From assembly GCA_017993055.1 (NCBI GenBank), contig JAGONM010000028.1:1-47247 (forward strand): a DNA stretch of 47,247 nt, in the 5' to 3' direction. The notes below the pieces were generated by a model. That model saw nothing but the letters and a program-made list of their open reading frames with translations, did no database searches and was not told the origin of the DNA. A program made the translations under genes and the position numbers. Numbering within the stretch: position 1 is the stretch's first letter; each line of letters starts with the position of its first letter. Source of the DNA: Armatimonadota bacterium (GTDB lineage Bacteria; Armatimonadota; UBA5829; DTJY01). Below are positions 2,340 through 28,546 of this stretch, piece by piece.

Positions 2340-2673
2340 GGTCCAACTCCCATTCGATGAATACCGTCGCCCGCGACGGCGTCTGACAGGACCGCCGACG
2401 CTCGGACTCACCACCTGATTGGGCAAGAAACCCTTGTTGTCCTTCCATGCACGGCACTCGCGAGAATCGTCTTAAGAGTATGACCTTCCCAAGCGCACCG
2501 TCGGCGCCGAGCGGCGGCCTACCGTGCTGAGCGTGCGGCAAGTCCGCGGAGATGGTCAGTATCGGATGCCGACGGTGGGTCAAGGCTGCACACTCATTGA
2601 CAAGAAACAGTCTTATGTTATACAGTAATGGCGGATGACTGCACCCAGGTAGAGCCGGAGCGGAGGAAGAGCC
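2340..2673. other. Gene-free divergent regulatory region
   Basis: These 334 bases separate the exported hydrolase (-) from the aldolase operon (+). They hold a sigma70-like promoter at 2597-2624 for the operon and a small palindrome, TCTTAAGA, near 2471-2478. The only longer ORF crossing this stretch begins at 2628 and runs into the aldolase gene in another frame; I regard it as a shadow. Confidence 0.7.
2597..2624 (+). promoter_or_regulatory. Sigma70-like promoter of the aldolase-transketolase operon, with operator-like sequence
   Basis: TTGACA (2597-2602) is a perfect -35 box and TATACA (2619-2624) a fair -10 box, 16 bases apart. The spacer and -10 carry AACAGTCTTAT followed by TTATACAGT (2606-2626), a loose inverted repeat that resembles the palindrome at 12644-12665. 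A repressor bound here would block RNA polymerase; the ROK protein at 7950-9140 is the natural candidate. Confidence 0.65.
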
Positions 2674-3528
2674 ATGAGATTCTGCAATACCGGAGCGCTG
2701 GTCGAGAAGGCTCGAGAGGGCGGATATGCCGTCCCGGCGTACAACTCGAACGGCGGGACGTACGACATCGCCAGAGCCGCGATCGAGGCGGCCGAGGAGT
2801 TGAAGTCGCCGCTGATTCTGCAGACCTACGAGCCGAATGCCGCATACCGCGGGTTCGAGTACTGCGCCCTCCAGGCGGCGCACCTGGCGGAATGTACAAC
2901 CGTACCCATCGCCCTGCATCTCGATCACGGGATGAGCCTGACCTCTGCGCTGCAGGCAATCTCAGCCGGATACAGCGGCGTCATGATAGACGGATCCCAC
3001 CTCCCGCTGGAGGAGAACATCCGAATCACGAAGCAGGTCATTGAGGTCGTCAGGCCGCTTGGCATCGCGGTCGAGGCGGAGATCGGCCACGTGGCGGGCG
3101 GGGTCCACTCCGGCGGCAGGGGCAGAGCCGGCTGCACCGATCCTGCTGAGGCCGTGTACTTCGTGGAGCAGACCGGCGTTGATATGCTGGCGATCGCGAA
3201 CGGGACCGTTCACGGGATCTTCGACCTCCAGGACGACCTCGACCTCGATCTCGTCCGTGATCTGAGGGCGAAGGTGCCCGTGCCGCTCGTTCAGCACGGG
3301 ACCTGCGGCATCCCGGACGAACTGCTTGCCAAGCTCGCGCAGGCGGGAATGGCGAAGATCAACTTCGGTGAGGGCTTCCGCTCGAACTACATCACGTATT
3401 TCAAAGAATACGCCGACACGCTCGATCACAAGGGCCATCCGTGGAAGATCATGCAGGCGGTCAAGGACCGGCTGAGAGAGGACATGAAGACGCTTATCCG
3501 TGCGCTGGGATCTGAGGGAAAAGCCTAA
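2674..3528 (+). CDS. Divergent class II (zinc) aldolase, GatY/KbaY/FbaA family
   Basis: This 284-residue TIM-barrel aldolase matches tagatose- and fructose-bisphosphate aldolases of class II in length and motif order. LDHG (83-86) gives the catalytic Asp84 and zinc ligand His85; His180 (NGTVHG) and His208 (QHGTCG) are the other zinc ligands. The region that holds the ketone phosphate in KbaY-type enzymes is altered: by eye, Ser211 is Cys, Thr233 of the NVAT motif is Glu (NFGE, 230-233), and the loop after His180 has Asp where Lys is usual. I infer that it does not use a normal phosphorylated donor. GGAGG at 2662-2666 supports this start. It is first in an operon with the dehydrogenase (26 bases on) and transketolase. 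Confidence 0.85.
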   Translation: MRFCNTGALVEKAREGGYAVPAYNSNGGTYDIARAAIEAAEELKSPLILQTYEPNAAYRGFEYCALQAAHLAECTTVPIALHLDHGMSLTSALQAISAGYSGVMIDGSHLPLEENIRITKQVIEVVRPLGIAVEAEIGHVAGGVHSGGRGRAGCTDPAEAVYFVEQTGVDMLAIANGTVHGIFDLQDDLDLDLVRDLRAKVPVPLVQHGTCGIPDELLAKLAQAGMAKINFGEGFRSNYITYFKEYADTLDHKGHPWKIMQAVKDRLREDMKTLIRALGSEGKA

Positions 3529-3554: not shown

Positions 3555-4664
3555 ATGTGGACCTACAAGCAGCCGACTGAGATACGATTCGGCACCGGGG
3601 AGCGGAAGGCGCTACCGGAAGTGGTCGCGCGGCTGGGCAAGCGTCCGATCGTCGTCACCGACACGGGCATCCGCGGGCTTCCGACGACAGCCGAGATCAT
3701 CGAGATGCTCGGCCCGGACACGCCGGTGTTCTCGGAAGTCGAGCCGAACCCGACGGTCTCCTCAGTAGACAGGCTCGCCGAGACGATCAACGCCCGTTCG
3801 TCCGACGTGGTGGTCGCGCTGGGAGGTGGAAGCGCCCTCGACTGCGCCAAGGCGGCGTGCTCGGTCGCGCTCCAGGGCGTACCGACGAGGAGGTATCACT
3901 CCGAGGGAGCGGTGTTCGACTCGCGCCGCCTGCCGTTGATCGCGATGCCGACAACCGCCGGGACCGGAAGCGAGGTCACGCCCGTATCGGTGCTGGACGA
4001 TCCGGAGAAGGGCGTCAAGGCGCCCGTGGTCCACGACAACTTCTACCCCAGCGTTGCGGTGGTCGACCCGGAGTTGACCCTGACCATGCCGGCTCACGTG
4101 ACCGCCGCCACGGGATTCGACGCGCTGTCCCACGCGATAGAGGGCTACTGGTCGAAGAACCACCAGCCGATCTGCGACCTGATGGCGCTGGAGGCCGCAG
4201 GCCTGTTCTTCAAGCACTTCCCGAACGTGCTGACGGATGGAAGCAACCTCGAGGCTCGCGAGGGAATGTCCAAGGTGGCCCTCCTGGCCGGTCTGGCATT
4301 CCAACTGCCCCGGACCGCGTCGGTGCATGCCTGCTCGTATCCGCTGTCGAGCGAGTACCACCTCCCGCACGGAGTCGCCTGCGCCATGACGCTCGACCAC
4401 TTCGTGCGGTTCAACGGCGACGCGATGGGCGAGCGGGGAGTCGCGCTGGCGCGTGCGGGTGGGTTCGCTGATATGCCGGCGCTCGCCGACGCGATCGCTG
4501 GCCTGAAGTCGCGGTCGGGGCTCGTCACGAATCTGAGCGAGGCAGGGGTCACCGAGGGCGAACTGGATGCGCTGGTGCAGGCAAGCTTCCATCCCATAAT
4601 GAACAACAATCCGAGGCGGGTCTGCGCTGAGGACCTGAGGCAGTTGTATGTGCAGATGCTGTGA
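3555..4664 (+). CDS. Iron-containing alcohol dehydrogenase
   Basis: A family III, metal-dependent alcohol dehydrogenase of 369 residues. The nucleotide-binding motif is GGGS (90-93) with GTGSE at 136-140. The four metal ligands expected for the family are present: Asp189 and His193 (GFDALSHAIEG), His258 (SVHAC) and His272 (LPHG). It should interconvert an aldehyde and an alcohol with NAD(P)H. Relatives include propanediol and butanol dehydrogenases and sulfoacetaldehyde reductases (SarD, SqwF). Beside a transketolase and a TauE-type exporter, reduction of a C2 or C3 aldehyde end product is a sensible job. Its stop codon is 11 bases before the transketolase start, indicating tight coupling. 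Confidence 0.9.
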   Translation: MWTYKQPTEIRFGTGERKALPEVVARLGKRPIVVTDTGIRGLPTTAEIIEMLGPDTPVFSEVEPNPTVSSVDRLAETINARSSDVVVALGGGSALDCAKAACSVALQGVPTRRYHSEGAVFDSRRLPLIAMPTTAGTGSEVTPVSVLDDPEKGVKAPVVHDNFYPSVAVVDPELTLTMPAHVTAATGFDALSHAIEGYWSKNHQPICDLMALEAAGLFFKHFPNVLTDGSNLEAREGMSKVALLAGLAFQLPRTASVHACSYPLSSEYHLPHGVACAMTLDHFVRFNGDAMGERGVALARAGGFADMPALADAIAGLKSRSGLVTNLSEAGVTEGELDALVQASFHPIMNNNPRRVCAEDLRQLYVQML

Positions 4665-4675
4665 GGAGACCGAAC

Positions 4676-5524
4676 ATGCAGGATAGCTTCGACCGTGAGC
4701 AGTTTGATCGGCTGGCCGGCGAGTTCCGATACGTCATCACGGACATGATCTGCCGTGCGGGATCGGGCCACCTCGGCGGCGCGCTCAGCCTCGTCGAAAT
4801 CATGATCTCGCTCTACTGGCGCGTGATGAACATCGAACCCGCGAACCCGAAGTGGGTGGACCGCGACCGACTCGTGCTCTCGAAAGGGCATGCGGGACCG
4901 GTGGCATATTGCTCGCTCGCCTACCGCGGCTTCTTCCCGAAGGAGATGTTGAAGACGCTCAACGAGGACGGCACTTCTCTCCCGAGCCACATGGACCGCC
5001 TGCGCACCCCCGGCGTCGATATGACCGCCGGATCGCTCGGCCAGGGGCTCTCGGCCGCATGCGGAATGGCACTCGCCGCACGGATGGACGGGCGGAAGCA
5101 CCACGTCTTCTGCATCATCGGCGACGGCGAGAGCAACGAGGGTCAGATATGGGAGGCCGCGATGTTCGGCGGTCACCACAAGCTCGACAACCTGATCGCG
5201 ATCTGCGACTACAACAAGCTGCAGATAGACGGCTTCACCGATGATATCCTGACGCTCGAACCGCTCGCGGACAAGTGGCGCGCGTTCAACTGGGAGGTCT
5301 TGGAGATGGACGGCCACGACTGGGACGACATATACACGACCATCAACCGCGCGAAGGCGACCGAGGGCAAGCCGGTTATGATCCTCGCCCACACGACAAA
5401 GGCGAAGGGCAACTGCGCGGTCGAGAACACGCCCGGGAGCCATAACATCAAAGTAGACGACCAAACGGCGTACGACAAGTACATGAATGCGCTCGACCTG
5501 ACGGAATACACGCTGCCGTACTGA
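4676..5524 (+). CDS. Transketolase, N-terminal (thiamine diphosphate-binding) subunit
   Basis: This 282-residue protein is the first half of a split transketolase. The thiamine diphosphate motif begins GDGESNEGQ at 149 and ends CDYNKLQ near 183; HLGG (32-35) and SKGH (69-72) are also typical. It pairs with the product of 5599-6531 to move a two-carbon ketol unit between sugars. GAGGAG at 4663-4668 places the start at ATG 4676 rather than at GTG 4661, which overlaps the upstream stop codon. Split transketolases occur both in central metabolism and in dedicated pathways (AptAB for apiose, SqwGH for sulfofructose); a place inside a sugar operon points to a dedicated role. Confidence 0.92.
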   Translation: MQDSFDREQFDRLAGEFRYVITDMICRAGSGHLGGALSLVEIMISLYWRVMNIEPANPKWVDRDRLVLSKGHAGPVAYCSLAYRGFFPKEMLKTLNEDGTSLPSHMDRLRTPGVDMTAGSLGQGLSAACGMALAARMDGRKHHVFCIIGDGESNEGQIWEAAMFGGHHKLDNLIAICDYNKLQIDGFTDDILTLEPLADKWRAFNWEVLEMDGHDWDDIYTTINRAKATEGKPVMILAHTTKAKGNCAVENTPGSHNIKVDDQTAYDKYMNALDLTEYTLPY

Positions 5525-5598: not shown

Positions 5599-6531
5599 AT
5601 GTCCGAAAACCTGCATGAACTCGAGATGCGCGCCGTGTACGCGCGGACGCTGATAGAGCTGGCGAACGAGAACCCGAACGTCGTCGTCATGGAAGCCGAC
5701 TTGAGCAAGGCGTCCGGCACCAACCCGGCGTTCGTCAACGCGCACCCGGACCGCTTTATCAACGCGGGCGTCGCCGAGGCCGACATGATCGGCATCGCGT
5801 CCGGGCTGGCGGTCGAGGGGAAGATTCCCTTCTGCGCGAGCTTCACCCCGTTCGCCACGCGGCGAGTCTACGACCAGGTCACGATCTCGGTCGCCTACGC
5901 CAACACCAACGTCAAGATAGTCGGCACGGCTCCCGGTATCACCGCCGGACCGAACGGCGGGACGCACATGTGCTTCCAGGACCTTGCGATCATGCGCGCG
6001 ATGCCGAACATGATCGTCCTCTCACCGGCCGACTGCTACGAACTCCGCGAGTGCCTCCTCTGGATGGCGGCGCACGAGGGGCCGGTATACATGCAGCTCA
6101 GCCGCATGAAGCAGCCGGCGGTCTTCGGTCCGAGCTACAGGTTCGATCCGAACAAGGCCGTCAACATCCACGAGGGCAAGGATGTCACGCTGGTGAGCAC
6201 CGGCTACATGACGCAGTTCGCGGTACGTGCGGCGGACGAACTGGCGTCTGAGGGAGTCTCAGTCGAACTGATCCATTATCCCAGCGTGAAGCCGTTCGAC
6301 GCGGCGACGCTGGTGCAGTCTGCGAAGAAGACCGGCAGGGTCGTGTCCGTCGAGAACCAGAGCATTATCGGCGGGCTCGGAGGCGCGGTCTGTGAAGTGC
6401 TGTCGGAGCAGCACCCCACCGCAGTCAAGCGGCTTGGCGTCCCCGACAAGTTCGGCGAGGTGGCCACTGAGCAGTACCTGTTCGACAAGCACGGGTTTGG
6501 ACCGGAACACATCAAGGCGGCGTGCAGATAG
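5599..6531 (+). CDS. Transketolase, C-terminal (pyrimidine-binding) subunit
   Basis: This 310-residue second half carries the catalytic Glu60 (GVAEADM) that activates thiamine diphosphate. His123 (GGTHM) matches the conserved His of the GxxGxTHQ region. Aligned by eye with E. coli transketolase, the phosphate-binding His461 is Ala111 and Asp469, which contacts the substrate hydroxyl, is Asn119. The residue after His123 is Met instead of Gln. Other split transketolases that I recall keep a His at the first position, so an altered substrate, perhaps without phosphate, is plausible. It follows its partner gene and precedes the isomerase in one operon. Confidence 0.9.
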   Translation: MSENLHELEMRAVYARTLIELANENPNVVVMEADLSKASGTNPAFVNAHPDRFINAGVAEADMIGIASGLAVEGKIPFCASFTPFATRRVYDQVTISVAYANTNVKIVGTAPGITAGPNGGTHMCFQDLAIMRAMPNMIVLSPADCYELRECLLWMAAHEGPVYMQLSRMKQPAVFGPSYRFDPNKAVNIHEGKDVTLVSTGYMTQFAVRAADELASEGVSVELIHYPSVKPFDAATLVQSAKKTGRVVSVENQSIIGGLGGAVCEVLSEQHPTAVKRLGVPDKFGEVATEQYLFDKHGFGPEHIKAACR

Positions 6532-6598: not shown

Positions 6599-7099
6599 GT
6601 GAGAATAGTCGTCGGCTCGGTAGTGAAGGGCTTTGCGCTCAAGAGTGCCGTTCGGGCGTATCTCGAGCAGAACGGCCACGAAGTGAACGACGTAGGATGC
6701 TACGACACGTCGGTATTCGCGAAGTTCCCCTCGATCGCCGAGCGGGCGGCGAAGATCCTTCGGGACGGCAAGGCCGACCTCGGCATTCTATGCTGCGGGA
6801 GCGGCACCGGGATGGCGCTCGCGGCCGGCAAGTTCAGCGGCATCTGTGCCGTGTCCTGCGAGTCGCCGCTGACGGCGGAGTTGGGGCGCAAGGTCAACGA
6901 CGCGAACGTGCTCTGCATGGGCGAAAGCATCGTGACCCCCGATGTCGCCTGCAAGATCGTCGAAGCATTCCTTGCCGCCCGGTTCCAGGACGCGCCGGCA
7001 GTCCCGGCGAAGGTCCGTGCATTCTGGGCTGAGGCCCGGGATGAGATCTCCTCCAAAGGCGTCGAGGCCCGCGACCGAGAGATCGAGACGATGGAGTAG
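6599..7099 (+). CDS. Divergent RpiB/LacAB-family sugar isomerase
   Basis: A 166-residue protein of the RpiB/LacA/LacB fold, starting at GTG with GGAGG 6 bases upstream. The family's active Cys is kept as Cys66 (CCGSGTGM), as is NDANVL (100-105). Compared by eye with E. coli RpiB, the Asp9-His10 pair is Val8-Val9 and the ring-opening His99 is Val99. Those residues bind the substrate and its phosphate, so ribose 5-phosphate is an unlikely substrate. SqwI, which isomerises sulfoerythrose after sulfo-transketolase action, belongs to this family. Here the gene directly follows the transketolase pair and the exporter starts 3 bases after its stop codon, so the three probably work together. Confidence 0.85.
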   Translation: MRIVVGSVVKGFALKSAVRAYLEQNGHEVNDVGCYDTSVFAKFPSIAERAAKILRDGKADLGILCCGSGTGMALAAGKFSGICAVSCESPLTAELGRKVNDANVLCMGESIVTPDVACKIVEAFLAARFQDAPAVPAKVRAFWAEARDEISSKGVEARDREIETME

Positions 7100-7102
7100 C
7101 AT

Positions 7103-7861
7103 GTGCCGGATTACGCTCGATACCTGATCATCGGCCTGATCGTGTTCCTGACGCACTACCAGGAGGGCATCACGGGGTTCGGGTGCGCCGCCCTCGCCCT
7201 GCCGTTCGTGGCGATGCTCGTCGGCCTGCAGACCGCGGTGCCTCTGCTCGTTATACTGGGCTGGCTGATTGCGATCGGCATCGTCCTGCTCGACCGGCGC
7301 GGGGTCGCGTGGAAGGAGTTCGCGATCATCTTGGTGCTCCTGGGCATCGGTCTGCCGATAGGTATGCGGGCCTCCAGTTCGCTGCCCGAGGACACTCTGA
7401 AGTGGATACTCGCTGGGTTTATGGTCGCAGTCGGCATCCACGGAATCATCAGGCAGGGACTCAGATACGCGCCGCCGAAGGAGATGACTCTCGCCAGGCG
7501 TCTGATGCTCAGCGCGTTCGTGCCGATGAGCGGGGTCATCCAGGGCGCGTTCGGGACGGGCGGCCCGCTCCTGGTGATATACGCGACGCGGGCCATACCC
7601 GACAAGAGCGCCTTCCGCGGGACTCTGTGCGTAGTGTGGATCGTGACCAACGCCGCCCTGATCGGGCGCTTCGCGGTCAACGGTGCTCTCACTCCCGACG
7701 TTCTCCGGCTCGTCGTGATCTGTCTCCCGTTCGTGCTGGCGGGCATGTTCCTGGGAAACCGGTCGCATTACCGTGTAAACGAGGTCATGTTTCGCCGCGT
7801 CGTCTACGGCGTGCTGACCGCGTCCGGAGCGTTTCTGGCCTGGTCGCTCATGAGACGTTGA
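7103..7861 (+). CDS. TauE/SafE-family membrane exporter
   Basis: This 252-residue protein is almost wholly hydrophobic with about 8 membrane segments. The N-terminal HYQEGITGFGCAALALPFVAML, with the glycine-rich ITGFG turn, and the second-half repeat GVIQGAFGTGGPLLVIY are typical of TauE/SafE (TSUP) transporters. Known members export sulfite, sulfoacetate or other small sulfonates, or move organic anions. I start at GTG 7103, with GGAG 7 bases upstream and 3 bases after the isomerase stop codon; an ATG at 7101 is out of frame. Its place at the end of the catabolic operon suggests that it removes an acidic end product. Confidence 0.88.
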   Translation: MPDYARYLIIGLIVFLTHYQEGITGFGCAALALPFVAMLVGLQTAVPLLVILGWLIAIGIVLLDRRGVAWKEFAIILVLLGIGLPIGMRASSSLPEDTLKWILAGFMVAVGIHGIIRQGLRYAPPKEMTLARRLMLSAFVPMSGVIQGAFGTGGPLLVIYATRAIPDKSAFRGTLCVVWIVTNAALIGRFAVNGALTPDVLRLVVICLPFVLAGMFLGNRSHYRVNEVMFRRVVYGVLTASGAFLAWSLMRR

Positions 7862-9147: not shown

Positions 9148-10917
9148 CTACTTCACCCAGACCCTTACCGTGCCGCCGACGAACAGCGCGATCATCCCGC
9201 CTACCGCCATCTCGGTCGCGGCCGGGAATGCGCGAGTCGCCGATATGATTCCCGCGAGGAACACCAGGAATCCGGCCGCGATGAGCACGAGGCCGGCCTT
9301 GCCGATCGCTGTCACGGGGATGAGATGGAAGTCGTCCCCGAGGTCGGTGCCGCGGAAATGGCCCCAGATCGTATCGCAGTTGTTGCTGGGTTGAGGCTTG
9401 CTCAACAGGCTCACGATCGGCGTCACGAGGAGCGCCGTCCCGGAACTGACGAACGGCGCGATGCTGAGCATCGAGTCCTTGTAGACTCTGCTTTGCTCGT
9501 GCCAGGCCGCCGCGTGAGCCGCCATCGAGCCGGAAATCGCCTGCAGAAGCGGGTACGTCGTGCCGTTGAAGTAGTCGGGCACGACGACCAGGTAAGAGGC
9601 GATCCCCGCCGCGCCGCCGACGAAGAAACCCGCCATCGCGCCCTGCCAGGTCGTGCGCTTCCACATGAGGCCGTAGATGATCGTGATCACGAACAGCGGC
9701 AGGTCTACGATTCCGACTACGGTCAGGTTTGCCCGCACCGCGCCGGAGTTCGAGAAGCTCAGGAGCCAGGCGACGAAGATCATCAGCCCGCCGCAGACCA
9801 GGGAACTGAACCGCGCCACTAGGATCAACTGCCGCTGGCTCGGAGCCTTCTTCTTCAGCGCCCGGAAGACGTCGTTCGTGAAGAGCGTGGCGACCGAGTT
9901 GATGTCCGCCGTGATCGTCGAGACCTGGGCGGCCACCAGACCGCAGAGCACGAACCCGAGAAGCCCTCGCCCGATGAGAGGCAGTTGCGTCGAGAGAAGC
10001 CACGGAATCGCATGGTCGGGGTTCACTATGCCCGGCGGCTGAATCCTCGCGAGCGCGATGCCCGGTAAGACCCACAGGAATGCGAGTGGCACGGTGATCA
10101 GCCCCGAAAGCAGCATTCCCTGCGCGCCGACCCGCGGGTTCCGAGCTCCGAACGCCCGCTGGAGGATGACCTGGTCAACCGTCGCCCATTTGGTCGAGAT
10201 GAGCAGAATCGCCAGGATGAAGAGCCAGTTGAACTCCCCTGCGCCGGTCGGAACCAGCTGAGTGTGGACCGCCTTCCCGTGCGTGTTGAGCCACTGGAAA
10301 AGCGATTCGGTCCCTCCGGCCAGATGGATCGCTACCGGCAGGGTGATCAGTCCGCCGACAAGGATGAACGCGAACTGTATCGAGTCCATGATGGCCACTG
10401 CCCACGCGCCGCCGATTGCTGAGTACATTATGGCGATGACGGAGAAGATCAACAGCCAGCCGAAGTAGTTGTCCCATCCGGTGATCTGCGCGCTGGCGGT
10501 TGCGGCGATGTATAGGAATATGCCCAGGAAAATGCAGAGCCTGAGGCCCCAGAACACGCCGATGATCACCCTGAGCGGACGGCTGTAGCGCATCTCGAGG
10601 AACTCAGGGATAGAGCGCACCCTGAGGCGGCGCATGACCGGGATGACGAAGAGACCCGAGAGCACGAGCGCCATGCACCCCGTCCAGTTCTGCCAGATGA
10701 TCGAGATGCCCTTCTGGAACGCAATGCCGCCCATCGAAATGAAGTGGTACATGCTCAGGTTCGTGGCGGTGATCGTCGCTCCGAGGATGAACGGAGTCAG
10801 CTCGCGTCCGGCGACGAAAATGTCGTCGGAGTGCTTTATCAGTCTCGATATCGTCAGACCGGCGAGCGCGAGCCCCGTCAGGAAGACGCCGATGATGCCG
10901 TAGTCAATCCACGTCAT
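9148..10917 (-). CDS. SLC5-family sodium:solute symporter
   Basis: A 589-residue membrane protein with about 13-14 segments. The N-terminal part (AGRELTPFILGATITATNLS, about 37-56) and GGAWAVAIMDSIQFAFILVGG are typical of the sodium:solute symporter family, which imports sugars, sugar acids or other small organic solutes. Its start overlaps the 3' end of the small accessory gene at 10904-11044 by 14 bases, and the isomerase gene is just upstream. That makes it the likely importer for the isomerase substrate. A soluble insert of about 100 residues before the last segments (near 460-540) is longer than in the shortest family members. It converges on the regulator gene without room for a terminator. 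Confidence 0.92.
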   Translation of the reverse strand: MTWIDYGIIGVFLTGLALAGLTISRLIKHSDDIFVAGRELTPFILGATITATNLSMYHFISMGGIAFQKGISIIWQNWTGCMALVLSGLFVIPVMRRLRVRSIPEFLEMRYSRPLRVIIGVFWGLRLCIFLGIFLYIAATASAQITGWDNYFGWLLIFSVIAIMYSAIGGAWAVAIMDSIQFAFILVGGLITLPVAIHLAGGTESLFQWLNTHGKAVHTQLVPTGAGEFNWLFILAILLISTKWATVDQVILQRAFGARNPRVGAQGMLLSGLITVPLAFLWVLPGIALARIQPPGIVNPDHAIPWLLSTQLPLIGRGLLGFVLCGLVAAQVSTITADINSVATLFTNDVFRALKKKAPSQRQLILVARFSSLVCGGLMIFVAWLLSFSNSGAVRANLTVVGIVDLPLFVITIIYGLMWKRTTWQGAMAGFFVGGAAGIASYLVVVPDYFNGTTYPLLQAISGSMAAHAAAWHEQSRVYKDSMLSIAPFVSSGTALLVTPIVSLLSKPQPSNNCDTIWGHFRGTDLGDDFHLIPVTAIGKAGLVLIAAGFLVFLAGIISATRAFPAATEMAVGGMIALFVGGTVRVWVK

Positions 10918-11058: not shown

Positions 11059-11103
11059 GGACTTATGGAACCTATGGGCCACATGGGGCCTATATGTCCT
11101 GTT
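11059..11103 (-). repeat. 9-nt tandem repeat in spacer (GGNCCTATG-type, 5 units)
   Basis: Plus-strand units in register: GGACTTATG, GAACCTATG, GGCCACATG, GGGCCTATA, TGTCCTGTT. The isomerase stop codon (11090-11092) lies inside the array, so the last codons of that gene come from repeat sequence. A related array is inside an ABC ATPase gene at 24780-24815 and also ends in TCCTGTT. Confidence 0.7.
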
Positions 11104-12550
11104 CCGTGAACGGCAACGCGCGTCGGTAGACTCCCGGGGTCGCCTGGCCGCCGTGGTAGACCGCCATGCCGAGATAGTTGCCGAACACCTCGTAGAGCAC
11201 GTTGCCGACGTGCGCCTGTGTGACGGCAATGTGGTGCGTGAAGCCGTCGAGCAGGATCTCCCGATAGATCTGCGGCAGGCCCGGGATGCGGCACCATCCG
11301 AGCCCTCCGAACGTCGTTGCCTCGTTGTCCTCGAACGCCCCCTCCCCGATGAAGACCTTCCATCCCTCTCCCGGCAGCCCCTGGGCCGCTCGGCAGAGCG
11401 TGGCTGGGCTCGGCTTGACCGTCAGTTCCATCGCGCCGGTCGAGATCTCCGCGCCGATGTGCTTGCTCATGATGCCCTGAGGCATGAGCTTAGGCTTCTC
11501 CTTGCCGAACGATGGAGGATAGACGCCGCAGTGCCAGAGATTCACAAGCTCGGGGTCGTCGTTGTGCAGGTTGTTCCAGTCGAGCAGCGCCGCCGGCGAG
11601 TCGGCCGCCAGCCTGAGCGCCTGCATAGAGAGCGCGCCGAGCACGTCCGCCTCGCACGCGACCGGGACGCCCCGCTCGCCCATCCGTGCGAGCACCCCGC
11701 AGGCGACTATGCCGTAGTTGAGTTGGAGCGAGTTCCAGCACTGGATCGCGACCGCGTCCATCTCGAACGTGCGGATCATCTCCTCCAGCCCGCACTCGAA
11801 CCTGGCGATTCGCACGAGGATCTCGTGCGACACAGCCGACGCGTCGGTCTCGGTCTGCAGGCTGAGCAGCTTCTCCTGCACCTTGGGATCATCGTCGCTG
11901 AGTCTGGCGATCGTCGCCAGCAGCTCGGAGAGGTCCTTCGGGGCGACGGTCACCCCGATCTGCTGGAGCATCTTCTCGTCATAGCGGCAGGTCCAGAACG
12001 CCTCGGGCCGGGTGCCGATCTGGCCGATGCGCATGCCCCGGATGCCCCTCAGGACGCGGCACACTCGGGCAAAGCGGTCCAGGTCGGCATGGAAGCTCTC
12101 CTCGTGTGGGAAGCAGATCGGCTTGTCGGCGATGGTGTACTTAACGCCGGTCTGCCGAAACGCCTCGGCGATCGAGAGCAGGCCGCAGAACGAGTCGCGT
12201 CTCGGCGCCCCGAGTTGAAGAGGCGCTTCCTCCTGGCAGCCGAAGATCATGACCGGCACGTTGGCATTCGCGCCGAGGACTGCACTAACGCAAGCCTGCT
12301 CGTCGCCGAAGTTCATGGCGCCGACGAGGATGCCGTCGACTCCGACCTTGCGAAAGAGCTCTCCGCACTTCTTGCCCTCGTCCTGGTTCTTAACGCATCC
12401 GGCCTCGCCGATCGTCTCGTCTGGCACCACGGCCTCGATGCCCAGTGCCTCCATCATTGCGAGGGTCTCGCCCCGCATCTTCGACGCCAACTCAGTCGAG
12501 AAATACCGTCTGTTCGCCGGGACGAACCCGATCGTCAGCTTCTCGTTCAT
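11090..12550 (-). CDS. L-fucose/L-arabinose isomerase-family ketol isomerase
   Basis: This 486-residue protein has the three-domain plan of FucI/AraA-type metal-dependent aldose-ketose isomerases. Probable metal ligands are Glu300 (ACEADVLGALSM), Asp324 (LDWNNLHNDDP) and a C-terminal His (His439, His440 or His447). NLWHCGVYPPSF (337-348) matches the conserved stretch after the Asp ligand. The start at 12550 has GGAGGT six bases upstream; the frame is open further but without coding character. It leads an operon with the small accessory protein and the symporter. The sugar is unknown: such isomerases act on fucose, arabinose, altrose and other aldoses. In the pathway proposed here it would make the ketose used by transketolase or aldolase. 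Confidence 0.85.
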   Translation of the reverse strand: MNEKLTIGFVPANRRYFSTELASKMRGETLAMMEALGIEAVVPDETIGEAGCVKNQDEGKKCGELFRKVGVDGILVGAMNFGDEQACVSAVLGANANVPVMIFGCQEEAPLQLGAPRRDSFCGLLSIAEAFRQTGVKYTIADKPICFPHEESFHADLDRFARVCRVLRGIRGMRIGQIGTRPEAFWTCRYDEKMLQQIGVTVAPKDLSELLATIARLSDDDPKVQEKLLSLQTETDASAVSHEILVRIARFECGLEEMIRTFEMDAVAIQCWNSLQLNYGIVACGVLARMGERGVPVACEADVLGALSMQALRLAADSPAALLDWNNLHNDDPELVNLWHCGVYPPSFGKEKPKLMPQGIMSKHIGAEISTGAMELTVKPSPATLCRAAQGLPGEGWKVFIGEGAFEDNEATTFGGLGWCRIPGLPQIYREILLDGFTHHIAVTQAHVGNVLYEVFGNYLGMAVYHGGQATPGVYRRALPFTEQDI

Positions 12551-12643
12551 CAGCAGACCTCCAGGGACGTGGAGTGCGACGGCTCGACATCGCTCCCCTG
12601 AGCCGCCGTGCTCCAAAGAAGGAATTCCGGGCATGCGCGATAA

Positions 12644-12665
12644 AACTGTCTTATATAAGTTAGTT
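12644..12665. promoter_or_regulatory. 22-bp palindromic operator candidate between divergent operons
   Basis: A perfect 10-bp palindrome CTTATATAAG (12650-12659) is flanked symmetrically by AACT (12644-12647) and AGTT (12662-12665). It lies in the 200-base region between the isomerase (-) and GH2 (+) genes, where one bound regulator could control both. It is AT-rich against a GC-rich background. I see no convincing -35/-10 pair on either strand. The sequence at 2606-2626 is related. Confidence 0.65.
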
Positions 12666-12750
12666 ACCCGGAGCATATATTCCGTGCCGGCATGCGGATT
12701 TCCTTCCGGACGATCTGCACCGCTCCGGCTGGAGTTGAGGAGGACTCTGA

Positions 12751-15549
12751 ATGTGTCGCAGATTGATTGAGCTGATGGTACTGACTGCGCTGGTGCTCGG
12801 TCTCGGAGCATCTGCGATGGCGGTCATCATCCCCGCCGACTCGAAGTACGTGCAGTCGCTCGACGGTATGTGGCGGTTCAAGCTCGAGCAGGCTTTGCCC
12901 GATGCCGCTGAACGAGCGAAGAGCAACGGCTACCGGCCGCCGGTGATCACACCGGAGACGTTCGAGCCGTTCTATGCCCTTGAATACAAAGAGGACGACT
13001 CGTGGCGCGATCTGGCGGTCCCGGCCAACTGGGAGATGCCAGGCTTCTCGCCCGCTACCTACAACGAGCCGGACAACGCCTCGGGCTTCTACCGCAAGTC
13101 GTTCGTCGTCCCGGCCGATTGGAAGGGCCGGATGGTGCTGGTCAACTTCGACGGCGTGCAGTGCGGCGCGGAGGTCTGGCTGAACGGCCAACCGGTCCAT
13201 GTCACCGAGCCGAGCTGGGGACGCAGGAACTATCACGAGAGCGGCTGGACGGCGTGGCAGGCCGACCTGACTCCGGCGGTGAAGTTCGGTGAGAAGAACC
13301 TCCTGGCGCTCCGAGTCACCAAGAACACCAGATCCTCGAACCTCGACTCGGGCGACTACTTCTTTCTCGGCGGCATCCATCGGACGGTGACGCTCTACTC
13401 CGTGCCGAAGAAGCACATCCGGGACCTGGCGGTACGAACGAAGCTCCTGGAGGGCGGCAAGGCCGAGGTCGAGGTCAGCGTCTCCGTGTGCTGCCCGGGA
13501 ACGGTCTCGATGCGCCTCGGCAGCCTCAGCCCGGTCAAGGGAGTGTCGCGCCGCGGCGAGGACATCAGACTCAGTCAGGTGGTCTCGAAGCCGAGGCTCT
13601 GGTCGGCGGAACATCCGAACCTCTATCCGCTCACTGTCCGGCTGCTCGATGAGCGTGGGAAGGCCGCTGAGACGGTGACGCGCAGGATCGGCATCCGAGA
13701 GGTCGAGATCAGAGACGGCATCCTGCTCGTGAACAGGGTTCCCGTGAAGATGACCGGCGTCTGCCGTCACGACGTGTATCTCTCCAAGGGCACGGCGGTC
13801 GGAGAGACGGTCTGGAAGAAGGACCTGGCGCTCATGAAGGCGGCAAACATCAACACGGTGCGCACCTCGCATTACCCCTACGGCGCCGGGTTCTACGACC
13901 TCTGCGACGAGATGGGCTTCTACGTCGTGGACGAGCTTCCCTATTGCTGGGGCGACACGAAGAACGTCGAGCTGCAGCCGGCGTTCCTCCAGCGCGCGAG
14001 GGAGACGATCGCTCGCGACAAGAACCATCCCTGCATCGTCATGTGGGGTATCGGCAATGAGAACGGATCGGGGCCGAATCTCCAGGCCGTCGCCGATCTC
14101 GTGAAGACGATCGAACCGACCAGACCGAGGCTCGTCTCCTGCAAGAAAGCCGACGAGTACGGCGTCGAGATGGACGATGCCCATTACACCGTGCCTGCCG
14201 AGATTCTGAAGTCGGCACAGGATACGGACCGTCGGGCGAAGTGGCCTATGATGTACACCGAGTGCCCGAACGTCTGGGATATCCGCATGGGCGCTGATGC
14301 GGGCTGCCTTGACCTCTGGGCTCAGGTGCTCCTCCGAACCTGGGAGCCGATCTGGTCGCACGACACGATCCCCGGCGGGTGTCTGTGGGAGTGGCAGGAC
14401 CGGGCCGTGTGCGACAAGTCTCCGACCAAGATGTACCACTACGATCCGGTCACCGGTGTGCAGTTCCTCAAGACGAAGGGGCTCGTAGACGGCTGGCGGC
14501 ATCTGAGGCCGGATCTCTACCATGTGAAGATGGTCTACTCGCCGATCAGCGTGGCGAAGGAGGTGGACCTGAAGTCGAAGCCCGGGTATGCGGTCCTCGA
14601 TGTCATCAACCGCTACTCGTTCACCGATCTTTCCGAGATCAACGCCGACTGGAAGCTTCTCAAAGGCAAGACGGTCCTGAAGTCCGGGACCGCCCACCTC
14701 AAACTGCCTGCTCGATCCGGCGGCAAGGTCGGACTCCAGCTTCCCGCGAACTGGAGGGCAAGTCAGCCGACATCACTCCGCATCGACTTCGATCATCCGA
14801 AGAACGGAAACGTGGTGAGCTGCGAGTTTCCTCTCGCGGCCGGAAGCCAGCCCGCGATCGTCTCAGCCCTGCCCAGCGAGTACGACGGCCTGACGCTTAA
14901 CCTGGTGGTCAACTGGACCAGGGGCGACAAACAGTGGTGGAAGGTGATAGACCGCTATCGCGGCAGCCTGATCAATATCAAGACCGATACGGGCCGGGCG
15001 CTCGATGCCGACATCGTGCTCGATAAGGATCCGACAGCCGTGGTCGGCAGGGTGCATGTGGAGTACGAGAGAGAAAGGTTCAGCTACAAGGTCGACTGGA
15101 CCGGCGAGAAGGCCGACATCCAGGAGCTTGGCTGGGCGTTCGAGATGCCCGAGGACTTCGACCGCTTCTCGTGGGACCGCCGGTCGCTGTGGTCGGTCTA
15201 CCCCGACGATCACATCGGCCGCCCGCACGGAACGGCGCTCCCCGACAGTGCCGACGTCCGCATCACGAATTGGAGCCGGCCCGATGCCTTCGATTTCAAC
15301 TCCACGAAGTACGACTGCAACTGGGCCAGCCTGACCAACAAGGCCGGGCACGGACTCCTCGCGGTCTTCGATACCGATCAGCGGCATCAGTGCAAAGGCG
15401 GATTCGGTGAGAAGGGCGGATATGAGCTCATCGTCAACAAGCAGTGCAGCCCGCCGCGGGACATCAGCAGCAACTCAGTGCCCGATCTGTACCTGGAACT
15501 GAAGCCCGGCGACTCGGTCGAGGGCAGCTTCAGAATCGGATCGAAATAG
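12751..15549 (+). CDS. Exported glycoside hydrolase family 2 enzyme
   Basis: A 932-residue GH2 enzyme with an N-terminal signal peptide (LMVLTALVLGLGASAMA). The order is sugar-binding jelly roll (from about 30), immunoglobulin-like domain, TIM barrel, then beta-rich C-terminal domains. WGIGNEN gives the acid/base Glu437 and MYTECPNVWD the nucleophile Glu504. Family members cleave beta-galactosides, beta-mannosides or beta-glucuronides; the substrate cannot be named. GAGGAGG precedes the start by 7 bases. The next gene is a close paralogue without a signal peptide, 10 bases downstream. Confidence 0.9.
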   Translation: MCRRLIELMVLTALVLGLGASAMAVIIPADSKYVQSLDGMWRFKLEQALPDAAERAKSNGYRPPVITPETFEPFYALEYKEDDSWRDLAVPANWEMPGFSPATYNEPDNASGFYRKSFVVPADWKGRMVLVNFDGVQCGAEVWLNGQPVHVTEPSWGRRNYHESGWTAWQADLTPAVKFGEKNLLALRVTKNTRSSNLDSGDYFFLGGIHRTVTLYSVPKKHIRDLAVRTKLLEGGKAEVEVSVSVCCPGTVSMRLGSLSPVKGVSRRGEDIRLSQVVSKPRLWSAEHPNLYPLTVRLLDERGKAAETVTRRIGIREVEIRDGILLVNRVPVKMTGVCRHDVYLSKGTAVGETVWKKDLALMKAANINTVRTSHYPYGAGFYDLCDEMGFYVVDELPYCWGDTKNVELQPAFLQRARETIARDKNHPCIVMWGIGNENGSGPNLQAVADLVKTIEPTRPRLVSCKKADEYGVEMDDAHYTVPAEILKSAQDTDRRAKWPMMYTECPNVWDIRMGADAGCLDLWAQVLLRTWEPIWSHDTIPGGCLWEWQDRAVCDKSPTKMYHYDPVTGVQFLKTKGLVDGWRHLRPDLYHVKMVYSPISVAKEVDLKSKPGYAVLDVINRYSFTDLSEINADWKLLKGKTVLKSGTAHLKLPARSGGKVGLQLPANWRASQPTSLRIDFDHPKNGNVVSCEFPLAAGSQPAIVSALPSEYDGLTLNLVVNWTRGDKQWWKVIDRYRGSLINIKTDTGRALDADIVLDKDPTAVVGRVHVEYERERFSYKVDWTGEKADIQELGWAFEMPEDFDRFSWDRRSLWSVYPDDHIGRPHGTALPDSADVRITNWSRPDAFDFNSTKYDCNWASLTNKAGHGLLAVFDTDQRHQCKGGFGEKGGYELIVNKQCSPPRDISSNSVPDLYLELKPGDSVEGSFRIGSK

Positions 15550-20386: not shown

Positions 20387-20786
20387 CGCGTGGCCGCTTC
20401 GAGGCCGCCCCATACGCACCCTTGGCGCGACGCCGAGAGCTTCTCAAGAGTTCCGGTTGGGCGCGATCCTGCCGCAGTCTTTTTGCGCGCGGATCATGGC
20501 GCATATCCGGATACTGTGCTATTATCAGTATTGAAGATGAAGATGCAGACGGTTTCGTCACGGAAGCACCTGGCAGTGAATGCCGACCGCTTACGGCAGA
20601 TCGCAGTTTCGGAATCATCCTGGCGGCTGGCGGGTGCCTGTAACGTTCATCGGCGACTCGTCCGAGCCGATGCTCGGAATGCAGGCGTATCGGATCCTGG
20701 ACTGCCGTGCCGCCGGAATGTGCCCGGCGATCATTGGGAGCCGGCACGGGCGGCAGCACTCTGATAGAGAAAGGAGCAGTAAAGAG
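20387..20786. other. Gene-free stretch before the pentapeptide-repeat gene
   Basis: About 400 bases with no convincing gene. An inverted repeat, ATACTG (20511-20516) and CAGTAT (20526-20531), encloses TATTAT and may be a promoter/operator. The frame of the downstream gene is open from ATG 20580, but the added 69 residues lack features and would bury its membrane anchor. Confidence 0.5.
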
Positions 20787-21452
20787 ATGAAACCGACCAA
20801 TCAGGTCAAACTGGGCCTGGCCGTGGTGCTGTGCATCGTGTTTGGAGCCGTGGTCTATCTCCAGACGCGGCCGGTCATCATCAGACACAGGGAAACGGGA
20901 GAAGTGATCTACACCGGCAAGACCGAGAAGTCCGCGCTCGAGAAGGCCGAGAAGGAGAGACTCGACTTGTGCGGCGCCGACCTGCGCGGTGCTCACCTGA
21001 GCGGCGCCGACCTGTCCGGCGTGCGCCTGAACAGCGCCGACCTGACCGGCGCCCAGATGATCGGTGCCGATCTCTCCGGCGCTCACCTCAGCAAGGCCAG
21101 GCTTACCGGCGCCAACCTGGTCGGAGCCAACCTGGCCGACGCCGACCTGGGTGAAGCACGGCTGACCGGGGCCGACCTGACCGGCGCCGATCTGACCGGC
21201 GCCGGACTCATCGCCGCGAACCTGACGCAGGCCGACCTCACGTATGCCGACTTGAGCGGCGCCGATCTGAGCGGCGCTCACCTGATTGAATCCAACCTGA
21301 GCAGCACCGATCTGACACATGCCGACCTGACCGGCGCCGATCTCAGCAAGGCCAATCTGCACGGCACCAAACTGACACATGCCGACCTGACCGGTGCGGA
21401 CCTGACTGACATTGACCTGAGCAACGCCAGTCTCAAGGATGCCATCCGGTGA
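20787..21452 (+). CDS. Membrane-anchored pentapeptide-repeat protein
   Basis: This 221-residue protein has one N-terminal membrane segment (9-27), a short linker and then 32 uninterrupted pentapeptides (59-218) of the A(D/N)LxG type. Such repeats fold into a square right-handed beta helix; 32 repeats would give 8 coils. Only three residues follow the last repeat. Most of the chain probably lies outside the cytoplasm if the anchor is an uncleaved signal. Known members include gyrase-protecting Qnr and MfpA, but those are soluble and lack an anchor, so that role is not suggested. AGGAG lies about 10 bases before ATG 20787. It stands alone between two operons. Confidence 0.85.
   Translation: MKPTNQVKLGLAVVLCIVFGAVVYLQTRPVIIRHRETGEVIYTGKTEKSALEKAEKERLDLCGADLRGAHLSGADLSGVRLNSADLTGAQMIGADLSGAHLSKARLTGANLVGANLADADLGEARLTGADLTGADLTGAGLIAANLTQADLTYADLSGADLSGAHLIESNLSSTDLTHADLTGADLSKANLHGTKLTHADLTGADLTDIDLSNASLKDAIR
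20961..21440 (+). repeat. 15-nt coding tandem repeat (32 units)
   Basis: DNA encoding the pentapeptides: 32 units of 15 bases in phase, with GCCGACCTG and CTGACCGGC as recurring parts. Near-identical neighbouring units make slippage likely. Confidence 0.85.
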
Positions 21453-25502: not shown

Positions 25503-26486
25503 ATGGTTGAGAGAGCGAGAAGCAATCCGATTCTGGCCAAGATCATCCGGGTCACGGAGTATCGGGAGTTCATGATAGTCTACATCATCCTCCTCGGCAC
25601 GATCGCCATCGCCCACGCAGTCCCTGGTTTCCTCGATTCGCGGAACACCTCGGCGATCCTCCTCGCGCTGGCCGACCAGAGTATCATCGCCATCGGGATG
25701 ACGCTGCTCCTCGTATCCGGCGGCTTCGACATGTCCGTCGGCTCCACCATGGCGCTCGCAGGCGTTACCACCGCGATCTGGCTCACCCTCGGGCTGCCGG
25801 TCGCCCTCGCAATCGCGCTCGGGCTTGCGGTCGGTGTGCTAATCGGCCTCATCAACGGCATGGTCGTCGCGCATATCGGCATCAACCCGTTCATCACGAC
25901 GCTTGGCATGATGAGCCTCGCGCGCGGGATGCTGATGGTTGTCTCGAACGGGAGGAACATATCCGGCCTGCCGGAGTCATTCACGGCGATCGGGCAGGGG
26001 AGTATCCTCGGCGTCCAGTACCCGATCATCATCTCGATCGTGCTGGTCTTCGCGGGCGATTTCCTGCTCAGGAGATGCCGTTTCTTCCGCCAGAACTATT
26101 ACATCGGCGCGAACGAGAAGGCCGCGCTCCTCTCGGGCATCAACGTCAGGCAGATGAAGGTCTTCAACTACGCGCTGACCGGCTTCCTCGCCGCGCTCGC
26201 CGGTATCATCATCACCGCCAGGCTCGGCTCGGCCTCGACTTCGGCGGGCAAGGGCCTCGAACTGCGGGTGATCTCGGCGGTCATCATCGGGGGCGCGAGT
26301 CTCAAAGGGGGAGTCGGCACTATCGCGGGCTCGTTCCTCGGCGCGCTCCTGATGAGCATCATCGTCAGTTCTATCAACCTGCTCGGCGTCGAGCTGAACT
26401 GGATAGATTTCGTCCTCGGTGCGACTCTCCTGCTCGCGGTGATGGCGGATACCTTCAGCCAGAAGAAGAGCGGGAGCAAGGAATGA
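25503..26486 (+). CDS. Sugar ABC transporter permease (RbsC type)
   Basis: This 327-residue protein has 8-10 membrane segments and the family hallmark LLVSGGFDMSVGSTMALAGV near 75-95. The EAA-like cytoplasmic loop is GANEKAALLSGINVRQMKVFNYALTGFLAALAG. It forms the channel of the importer together with 22950-23957 and 23961-25493. GGAGACGAA precedes the start. Its stop codon overlaps the start of the glycyl radical enzyme gene in an ATGA junction, so the two are translationally coupled. Confidence 0.92.
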   Translation: MVERARSNPILAKIIRVTEYREFMIVYIILLGTIAIAHAVPGFLDSRNTSAILLALADQSIIAIGMTLLLVSGGFDMSVGSTMALAGVTTAIWLTLGLPVALAIALGLAVGVLIGLINGMVVAHIGINPFITTLGMMSLARGMLMVVSNGRNISGLPESFTAIGQGSILGVQYPIIISIVLVFAGDFLLRRCRFFRQNYYIGANEKAALLSGINVRQMKVFNYALTGFLAALAGIIITARLGSASTSAGKGLELRVISAVIIGGASLKGGVGTIAGSFLGALLMSIIVSSINLLGVELNWIDFVLGATLLLAVMADTFSQKKSGSKE

Positions 26487-28546
26487 GACTCCAGCCGTAT
26501 GTGCTCCCGCCGGAGATTGCCGCTCTGCGCAAGATCGCGCTCAGGAAGAAGAGCGGATGGGGTTGCCCCGACGTCCTTGAGGCGGAGGCTCAGGCGTGGC
26601 TCGACCACTCTCCCGATGAGGACTGGCTGATCTGGCGCGCGCGTCGGACCGCCGCGAAACTGGCGGGCATGCCGATTGACATCCTCCGCGGAGAGCGGAT
26701 CGTCGGCCGCCCTCTGCTCCGGGAAGCGACCGAGGCCGAGAACGAGGAACTCTCCGCAGCGTGGAAGGTCCTGGAATCCGTTCCTCCATTTCCCGGCGGC
26801 GACACCGGGCATTTCAACCCCGACTTCGACAAGGTCTTCCGGCTCGGCATCGGGGGTATTCTGGAGGAAATCCGTTCGAGGCGGAATGCGTCGGAGGCCG
26901 ATAAGCATCCGTTCTACGACGCGTGCGAGATCGCGATGAAGGCGCTCTCGGATTACATCCTCCGCGTCGCCGATGCATGCGATTCCCTCATGGCGGACGT
27001 CTGTCGAAGGGTCGCGTCCGAGCCGCCTTCGACGTTCCACGAGGCCGTCCAGTTGTTATTCCTCCTGATCGTAACCCTATGGTTCGGCGAGGATCACGTC
27101 CTCTGCAATCCTGGCCGGGTAGATCGGACGCTTCGCCCGTTCTACGAGGCCGATCTCGCCGCCGGGCGCATCACCCGCGATGAGGCGCTCGATCTCATCT
27201 GCTGCCTCTACATTCAGCTCAACATGATCTGCTTCCCCGGAGCGGCAATCGCCGTCCTTGTCGGCGGCCGGAACGCCGACGGGCGCGACCTGACGAACGA
27301 CCTGACCTATCTATGCCTGGAGGCCCGGCTCGCGACGCACCTGGCCTATCCCACTGTCGGCCTGGCGTGGCACGAGGGGACTCCCCCGGAACTGACCGAC
27401 TTTGCATGCCGCATGATCGCCACCGGCGTCGGCGATCCAGCGTTCTTCAACGACGAGTTGATCTCCCGGGGCCTCCAGGACCTCGGTGTCTCGGAGGCCG
27501 ACTCGCGCGACTACATGAACTCCACATGCGTCGAGATCAAGCCTGTCGGCGCGTCGAACATCTGGGTCACGCATCCCTACTTCAACTGCCCGGAAGCCGT
27601 CCTTCAGGCGATGGACGGCGAGCCGGCTGACTTCGAGCAGTTCAGCTCAGTGGTGAGGGAGCAGCTCAGCGCCCAGGTCCGGGAGGCCGCCGAAAACTCC
27701 GACCGCATCTGGAGGGACCGATACGCGCGCGGAGGATTCGCGCTCGCCAGTTGCGTCATCAACGACTGTCTCGAGCGGGGCATTGACTTCGACCGTGGAG
27801 GCGCGCGTTACAACTGGTTGGAGAACTCGTTCGTCGGCCTCGCGAACCTCGTGGACGGCATGATGGCCGTGAAGAAGCTGGTCTTCGATTCGCAGCGTTT
27901 GTCGCTCTCCGAGTTCCGCGATATCCTCAGAGCCGACTTCGAGGGACATGAGGCGCTCCGTCAGGAGATACTGAACACGATGCCGCACTACGGCACCGAC
28001 AACCCGGAGGCCGATGCCCTCGCCGTCGAGTGGGCGCACTTCATCGAGGAGACTTCGATGTCGAACAAAGTCGGCGGAAGTCCCTACGTCCCCGGCTTCT
28101 TCTGCTGGATCATGCACGGCGAGTTCGGCGCGCGGACCGGCGCGACTCCCGACGGACGGAAGGCCGGGACCGCACTCGCCGACGGAGCCGGCGCCGCGCA
28201 GGGCCGAGAGACCGCCGGTCCGACGGCTTCGATCCTCTCGACCACCAAATGGAGCCATCGCAGCGCGATCGGCGGGCTGGTGCATAACCTGAAGCTCTCC
28301 GGCAACTCCCTGCGCACCGAGTCCGAGCTTCAGGCGCTTCGCACCCTGGTCGAGACCTACCTGCGTTTGGGCGGCTTCGAGATACAAGTCAACGTCGTGG
28401 ATGCCAGTGTCCTTCGGGACGCTCAGGCTCATCCCGACAGACACGCGGACCTCCTAGTCAGGGTCGCGGGCTACTCCGACTACTTCACCCACCTCGGCCC
28501 GGTCCTGCAGGAAGAGATCATCTCGCGAACGGAGCACGGCTGCTAG
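26483..28546 (+). CDS. Glycyl radical enzyme (pyruvate formate-lyase-like), substrate unknown
   Basis: A 687-residue glycyl radical enzyme. The radical loop RVAGYSDYF near the C-terminus gives Gly663. The thiyl Cys349 and general base Glu351 lie in NSTCVEIKPVG, the CVE arrangement of lyases and dehydratases (diol dehydratase, choline TMA-lyase, HypD, isethionate sulfite-lyase), not the Cys-Cys pair of true pyruvate formate-lyase. It is shorter than the usual 750-850 residues. An anaerobic, oxygen-sensitive elimination or C-C, C-N or C-S cleavage is expected. Coupling to a sugar ABC permease (4-base overlap) suggests that the imported compound or its product is the substrate. No activating radical SAM enzyme is encoded in this window. 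GGGAG lies just before ATG 26483. Confidence 0.9.
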   Translation: MRLQPYVLPPEIAALRKIALRKKSGWGCPDVLEAEAQAWLDHSPDEDWLIWRARRTAAKLAGMPIDILRGERIVGRPLLREATEAENEELSAAWKVLESVPPFPGGDTGHFNPDFDKVFRLGIGGILEEIRSRRNASEADKHPFYDACEIAMKALSDYILRVADACDSLMADVCRRVASEPPSTFHEAVQLLFLLIVTLWFGEDHVLCNPGRVDRTLRPFYEADLAAGRITRDEALDLICCLYIQLNMICFPGAAIAVLVGGRNADGRDLTNDLTYLCLEARLATHLAYPTVGLAWHEGTPPELTDFACRMIATGVGDPAFFNDELISRGLQDLGVSEADSRDYMNSTCVEIKPVGASNIWVTHPYFNCPEAVLQAMDGEPADFEQFSSVVREQLSAQVREAAENSDRIWRDRYARGGFALASCVINDCLERGIDFDRGGARYNWLENSFVGLANLVDGMMAVKKLVFDSQRLSLSEFRDILRADFEGHEALRQEILNTMPHYGTDNPEADALAVEWAHFIEETSMSNKVGGSPYVPGFFCWIMHGEFGARTGATPDGRKAGTALADGAGAAQGRETAGPTASILSTTKWSHRSAIGGLVHNLKLSGNSLRTESELQALRTLVETYLRLGGFEIQVNVVDASVLRDAQAHPDRHADLLVRVAGYSDYFTHLGPVLQEEIISRTEHGC

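Follow-up and report, generated by a model that had tools for sequence, protein, structure and literature searches.

The window, a 47,247-nucleotide stretch of contig JAGONM010000028.1 from an Armatimonadota bacterium, carries near its start a class II aldolase gene followed by genes that resemble those of the sulfo-transketolase pathway (Table 1). The aldolase frame is open, begins with ATG, encodes 284 amino acids and has a GGAGG-type ribosome site directly upstream of its start (GGAGGAAGAGCC). It is gene 1 of six same-strand genes extending through the TauE/SafE-family exporter, with the ROK-family regulator next; since the gaps in this run are 26, -4, 74, 67 and 3 nt on one strand, the genes from aldolase to exporter likely form one operon. 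The promoter-like hexamer pair upstream of the run was the one pair found in the scanned region against 1.2 expected from shuffles, which is chance frequency. The Pfam profile PF01116 (F_bP_aldolase) matches the aldolase over its full length with 265 bits, and the three histidine zinc ligands and the catalytic aspartate accompany this match. Among NCBIfam models every cut-off was missed, the best score for an FBP/TBP aldolase being 246 bits against a cut-off of 343.

Table 1. Features of the window: position, strand and basis of assignment
Feature	Position	Strand	Basis or remark
Promoter-like TTGACA-N18-TACAGT	2597..2626	+	47 nt upstream of aldolase start; weak evidence
Zinc-type class II aldolase, Glu233 at the donor phosphate site	2674..3528	+	profile, alignment, tree, model
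Iron-type alcohol dehydrogenase (Fe-ADH), SqwF-like	3555..4664	+	closest solved relative is sulfoacetaldehyde reductase BkTauF (6JKO)
Transketolase N-terminal subunit, SqwG-like	4661..5524	+	profile matches
Transketolase C-terminal subunit, SqwH-like	5599..6531	+	tree grouping
RpiB/LacAB-family isomerase, SqwI-like	6599..7099	+	RpiB family by profiles
TauE/SafE-family exporter, SqwE-like	7103..7861	+	profile match
ROK-family regulator with N-terminal winged helix	7929..9140	+	profile match
Sodium:solute symporter, possible sulfosugar importer	9148..10917	-	profile match
Fucose-isomerase-like protein, distant SftI match	11090..12811	-	NF048012, 118 bits; Fucose_iso_C
Pentapeptide-repeat-like protein	20580..21452		repeated A(D/N)L motifs, read from translation
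Glycyl radical enzyme, PFL-like	26477..28546		TIGR01774 score of 384 bits, well short of all cut-offs

The Fe-ADH scores 339 bits against BkTauF, a sulfoacetaldehyde reductase (PMC6616044), and 199 against the next solved relative. In the alignment it keeps the tested residues F252, T257, H261 and H275 of BkTauF, with F265 changed to Tyr and Q196 to His, both of which are variants that occur in BkTauF homologues (PMC6616044). The transketolase C subunit groups, with support of 100/99, with transketolases of clostridial sulfoquinovose-isomerase/SF-transaldolase clusters, whose roles were assigned by context, and the transketolase tree thereby places a split SqwGH-type enzyme in the window cluster. 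For RpiB, the best match in genomes G1076 and G1095 is the copy in the sulfo-transketolase cluster, by a small margin. The sole NCBIfam match of the fucose-isomerase-like protein, the start of whose gene probably lies near 12550, is to sulfoquinovose isomerase; relatives score 138-162 bits and clostridial copies ~420 on the same model, which has a cut-off of 700, and solved structures include no close relative.

The window thus carries an apparent sulfoglycolytic transketolase operon, which would serve breakdown of a plant-derived sulfosugar. For each known step of the pathway SqvD-SqwGH-SqwI-SqwF-SqwE (PMC12890257, partial text) there is a candidate gene even when the aldolase is set aside, and the pathway therefore does not dictate a role for it. 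A probable sulfoacetaldehyde-consuming enzyme is at hand, namely the Fe-ADH in the window and a SauS-type enzyme with CoA ligase in relatives. In the window operon we found no reductase or dehydrogenase dedicated to sulfolactaldehyde, although the Fe-ADH could fill that role, and no sugar kinase was seen among the conserved neighbours of the aldolase. Elsewhere in the window, the glycyl radical enzyme gene follows a sugar ABC transporter and a UroD-like methyltransferase, and no adjoining activase was noticed.

The Glu233 clade and its active site

In KbaY/AgaY numbering, which applies with zero offset, alignment confirmed all the residues named in the original prediction: the zinc ligands and catalytic residue D84, H85, H180 and H208 are intact, and Glu233, Cys211 and Asp184 are present. 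The sequence reads G181-I-F-D184 where HGxYK184 is usual, followed by the motifs HGTC211 and KIN230FGE233. Positions 184, 211 and 233 are established donor phosphate contacts in KbaY/FBP aldolase structures, and the FBP/TBP-type set K184/S211/T233 is replaced here by D184, C211 and E233. A confident AlphaFold model (pLDDT 91, pTM 0.91, with a 28-sequence alignment as input) superposes on FBP aldolases and on the SFP aldolases 8q57-8q5a (SqiA) with TM ~0.9.

The proposed search for homologues sharing the Glu233 signature was productive. Of the 95 non-identical class II aldolases aligned, all 19 members of one clade have Glu233, while the remaining 76 have Thr (54), Ser (21) or a gap (1) at this position. 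These 19 form one side of a single branch in the maximum-likelihood tree (support 100/97; 100% of 200 bootstrap trees) and come from three phyla, namely Armatimonadota, Lentisphaerota and, through one genome, the spirochaetes. Within the clade, position 184 is Q, D, E, R or K and position 211 is C, G or S; Asp184 and Cys211 are relaxed, local features and not diagnostic. The fixed donor-side signature consists of Glu233 together with Q186, T210, F231 and G232, and on the acceptor side R59, H252, H255, W257 and K264 are invariant. All five of these acceptor-side residues are already present in the nearest outgroup sequence (39% identity), which keeps T233 and K184; this suggests that changes in the acceptor pocket preceded those in the donor pocket. 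The two other class II aldolases of the window genome both have T233, and one of them, L002, has a canonical donor site. The other lies at L003 (983-3434), where it adjoins a second SftI-like isomerase.

The original prediction held that an acidic residue at 233 should make the donor site reject phosphate. This is well supported at the level of sequence, the contacts at 184, 211 and 233 being changed or relaxed, with Glu233 as the element fixed across the clade. The accompanying suggestion of a free dihydroxyacetone donor is possible, being compatible with the lost phosphate contacts and with a kinase-free sulfo-transketolase operon. The single origin of the Glu233 signature and the sulfosugar operon are additions to that prediction.

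On the acceptor side, R236 is retained and aligns with R259 of the Giardia FBP aldolase, where R259 and R280 bind FBP and the R259A exchange costs nearly all efficiency (PMC6692403). Alignment to Thermus FBA pairs W257 with R280 and H255 with D278, so that D278-P-R280 of FBP aldolases becomes H255-P/x-W257 in the clade, with R59 as a new residue. In SF transaldolase, a Trp-Ala-Arg ('WAR') motif orients the sulfonate (PMC11659671, partial text). The site therefore probably still binds an anion at C6, through an altered set of residues that includes Arg and Trp. Retention of the acceptor Arg236 together with loss of the donor contacts makes a ligand with a C6 anion and without a C1 phosphate probable. 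Both 6-deoxy-6-sulfofructose (SF) and fructose 6-phosphate (F6P) would fit as ketohexoses of this kind, and the acceptor-side residues would equally suit a C6 phosphate; we infer that the anion is a sulfonate. Together with the operon, the acceptor-side changes point to SF as a candidate substrate over free ketoses in general.

Neighbourhoods of the Glu233 aldolases

Twenty aldolase loci were compared; many lie on MAG contigs, whose ends restrict the counts of neighbours. Next to the aldolase there is a ROK regulator in 12 loci, a transketolase C subunit in 11, an N subunit in 8, RpiB and a NagB-like isomerase in 10 each, an SftI-like isomerase and Fe-ADH in 9 each, and TauE in 8. The sulfo-transketolase context recurs in most relatives. 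Four Lentisphaerota-type loci (L010, L122, L123 and L125) have a SauS-type acylating sulfoacetaldehyde dehydrogenase instead of Fe-ADH (528 bits in L122, against a cut-off of 600), and three of them also encode a DASS transporter and subunits of an ADP-forming CoA ligase; SauS-type dehydrogenase with CoA ligase is the arrangement of the published sulfoacetate-forming variant, SqwD/SqwKL (PMC12890257, partial text).

A clade-type transketolase was found somewhere in the genome in 14 of the 18 Glu233 genomes searched; it was not found in G223, G224, the spirochaete G292 or the small assembly G625. The outgroup genome with a T233 aldolase (G643) likewise gave none at the threshold used. G223 and G224 belong to the same family as the window genome, and there the aldolase lies beside an aldehyde dehydrogenase, the phosphosulfolactate synthase ComA, a racemase of the LarA type, exporters of the YeiH and TauE kinds, a ROK regulator and a canonical TalC (SPFVGR). 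This TalC is unlikely to be an SF transaldolase, having a phosphate Arg where those enzymes have Trp. In G292, an isomerase and the aldolase occur together. With the clade-type transketolase absent and the TalC of G223/G224 lacking the SF-transaldolase Trp, the aldolase would be the sole visible candidate for cutting SF in these three genomes.

Clostridial clusters (L154, L156 and L167) show the complementary arrangement: a TalC with the SF-transaldolase Trp (SPFxGW) stands beside the same transketolase set, without a Glu233 aldolase, and no SPFxGW-type TalC was seen in the Glu233 operons. These clostridial clusters also hold RpiB, Fe-ADH and the ~420-bit sulfoquinovose-isomerase match. Bifurcated transketolase/transaldolase clusters have been published for Faecalicatena (PMC11659671, partial text) and Caproiciproducens (PMC13219744, partial text), and the latter are likewise described as being without a sulfolactaldehyde-specific enzyme.

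Several further genes were observed around the relatives. At two Armatimonadota loci from the family of the window genome, L104 (4107-9127) and L105 (10855-17326), the aldolase adjoins ComA (340 bits, over the cut-off), a LarA-type nickel-pincer racemase near malate racemases (444 bits against a cut-off of 500), a YeiH exporter, a canonical TalC and an aldehyde dehydrogenase; these genes may form a sulfolactate route that includes racemisation and C-S chemistry of the ComA type. A NagB-like protein of the glucosamine-6-phosphate deaminase family (L005, 9109-9966, and nine other loci; ~71 bits, far under the cut-offs) is the usual partner of the aldolase where an SftI-like isomerase does not adjoin; it might isomerise sulfoquinovose, as yet unrecognised in that role, or deaminate a sulfo-amino-sugar. 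GH116-family glycosidases lie near the aldolase at five loci (L007, 7819-10332; L008, 3755-6184; L009, 8086-10482; L119, 4722-7073; L121, 4258-6621) and are candidates for an unknown sulfoquinovosidase. By contrast, the GH31 protein of L004 gained no support as a YihQ-type sulfoquinovosidase, its best solved relative being an alpha-glucosidase (421 bits versus 46 for YihQ), and solved structures gave no support for reading the GFO/IDH/MocA neighbour as an NAD-dependent sulfoquinovosidase.

Candidate reactions of the aldolase

On balance, we favour the view that the clade lost donor-phosphate recognition and became a metal enzyme for unphosphorylated sulfoketohexoses, be it an SF aldolase, an SF:GAP dihydroxyacetone transferase or a sulfoketohexose 4-epimerase, within a kinase-free sulfoglycolysis in Armatimonadota and Lentisphaerota. 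For the reaction itself we propose, tentatively and at somewhat short of an even chance, that the aldolase would cleave unphosphorylated SF to sulfolactaldehyde and dihydroxyacetone, or pass the dihydroxyacetone unit on. We infer the substrate, the reaction and the role of each residue from the alignments and the gene context. In this scheme, Zn2+ on H85, H180 and H208 would polarise the C2 carbonyl of SF, D84 would handle the C4 hydroxyl, and the C3-C4 bond would then break. Glu233, replacing the phosphate-holding Thr, would hydrogen-bond the free C1 hydroxyl, while R236 with R59, H255 and W257 would hold the sulfonate. Sulfolactaldehyde would depart and leave a dihydroxyacetone enediolate at the metal, which would then come off as dihydroxyacetone or, perhaps, react with glyceraldehyde 3-phosphate to form fructose 6-phosphate. 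The aldolase would thereby provide a second, C3-yielding branch alongside the transketolase branch, which would lead from SF through sulfoerythrose, sulfoerythrulose and sulfoacetaldehyde to isethionate. Because the clostridial clusters carry the Trp-type TalC and the Glu233 operons the aldolase instead, the latter may occupy the place of SftT, the class I SF transaldolase of some Clostridia. The aldolase is not itself a class I SF transaldolase, as a TalC-type sequence with Schiff-base Lys and sulfonate Trp is not what it has.

The fate of dihydroxyacetone bears on the choice between release and transfer. A DAK1-type dihydroxyacetone kinase is missing from 13 of the 16 genomes, the window's own among them. 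Dihydroxyacetone can also be phosphorylated by glycerol kinase (PMC3863723, partial text), and this enzyme exceeds the cut-off in 10 of 14 genomes, again including the window's own, but in none of G189, G223, G224 and G325. This argues against release of free dihydroxyacetone in those four genomes and suggests that some members, at least, transfer the unit or epimerise without releasing it.

A C4-epimerase working by retro-aldol and aldol steps, whose halves are never released and which might turn 6-sulfotagatose (from sulfofucose) into SF for the transketolase, would explain the missing dihydroxyacetone sink, how often an aldose-ketose isomerase stands beside the aldolase and why the transketolase link is kept. 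Class II aldolases offer precedents via a dihydroxyacetone enediolate, namely FbaA acting on fructose 6-phosphate (PMC5434028), UxaE (PMC11194214) and GatZ/KbaZ (PMC11907403). However, the marks of GatZ-type epimerases (Glu in place of a zinc-ligand His, Cys for N24, Glu for Gln48; PMC11907403) are missing, with H180, N24 and Q50 kept, which argues against a GatZ/KbaZ-type epimerase more than against epimerisation in general. The genomes gave no evidence of sulfofucose or sulfotagatose, and in G223/G224 and G292 the lack of the clade-type transketolase, with a Trp-free TalC in G223/G224, would leave the SF formed without a visible user. We judge an epimerase unlikely, though it is the strongest of the rival readings.

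A phosphorylated substrate could be accommodated in two ways. The kept anion-binding acceptor end and lost donor site suit F6P as well as SF, so an aldolase acting on F6P (C6 phosphate, free C1) might supply glyceraldehyde 3-phosphate to the transketolase; a possible F6P aldolase has been proposed in the Faecalicatena sulfo-transketolase cluster (PMC11659671, partial text). Its acceptor site is nevertheless unlike that of phosphate-binding FBP aldolases (DPR changed to H-x-W, with the new R59), dihydroxyacetone kinase is missing from most genomes, and we give this option a slim chance. Equally improbable is an ordinary DHAP-dependent aldolase (for FBP, TBP or SFP) that tolerates Glu233: fold, catalytic residues and the model's similarity to FBP aldolases and SqiA are standard, but Glu stands where the sample otherwise has Thr or Ser, K184 and S211 are unconserved, the conserved neighbourhood has no kinase for a C1 phosphate, and the genome already holds the canonical-site aldolase L002. 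Finally, a glycolaldehyde-type aldolase splitting 4-deoxy-4-sulfoerythrose into glycolaldehyde and sulfoacetaldehyde would bypass the second transketolase step; it needs a phosphate-free donor, and sulfoerythrose is an expected operon intermediate (PMC12890257, partial text). We consider it very improbable, as the aldolase operons retain RpiB and transketolase, and genomes that lack the clade-type transketolase still have the aldolase.

Comparison with known systems

A 2026 review lists as C-C cleaving enzymes of sulfoquinovose breakdown class I and II aldolases acting on phosphorylated SF, a class I transaldolase, transketolase and KDSG aldolase (PMC12890257, partial text). A class II aldolase for unphosphorylated SF, if borne out, would add a route with chemistry undescribed so far for this enzyme family; KINFGE would be a short sequence marker for finding it in metagenomes, and sulfoglycolysis would extend to new phyla, for which a limited literature search gave no report. 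Natural class II aldolases that take free dihydroxyacetone would also be useful in synthesis, DHAP being unstable. It is a puzzle that sulfo-transketolase clusters can carry SF transaldolase genes while having no sink for sulfolactaldehyde (PMC13219744, partial text), and the Glu233 operons are a parallel case.

With class II FBP/TBP aldolases (KbaY/AgaY 1gvf, Bacillus 3q94 and 7ncc, Giardia FBPA), to which it is ~30-37% identical, the aldolase shares the fold, the zinc ligands, D84, E136, K228 and N230; it differs from them in the loss of K184/S211/T233, the fixed Glu233, H-x-W and R59. SqiA (8q57, 8q58) is likewise a class II aldolase of a sulfoglycolytic cluster, and both keep R236 and have lost R280 of FBP aldolases. 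SqiA, by contrast, still has its phosphate contacts at the donor end and belongs to a pathway that requires an SF kinase; at ~31-33% identity the two are not sisters in the tree, and with the donor phosphate site lost a SqiA-type SFP aldolase was rejected as an identity. UxaE and GatZ/KbaZ resemble the aldolase in acting on unphosphorylated or C6-anionic ketohexoses with zinc in a class II aldolase-like barrel, the GatZ/KbaZ marker residues setting the latter apart.

In content, the operon is like the sulfo-transketolase pathway (SqwGH, SqwI, SqwF and SqwE, or the SqwD/SqwKL variant). It differs from published clusters, for which the partial texts of PMC12890257, PMC11659671 and PMC13219744 mention no class II aldolase, and its isomerase is distantly SftI-like or NagB-like. 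We propose a functional parallel to SftT/SqvA: an unphosphorylated dihydroxyacetone unit would be removed from SF in both cases, and SftT-type enzymes stand beside the same transketolase set in Clostridia. The two belong to different families, with a Schiff-base lysine in SftT/SqvA and a metal in the aldolase.
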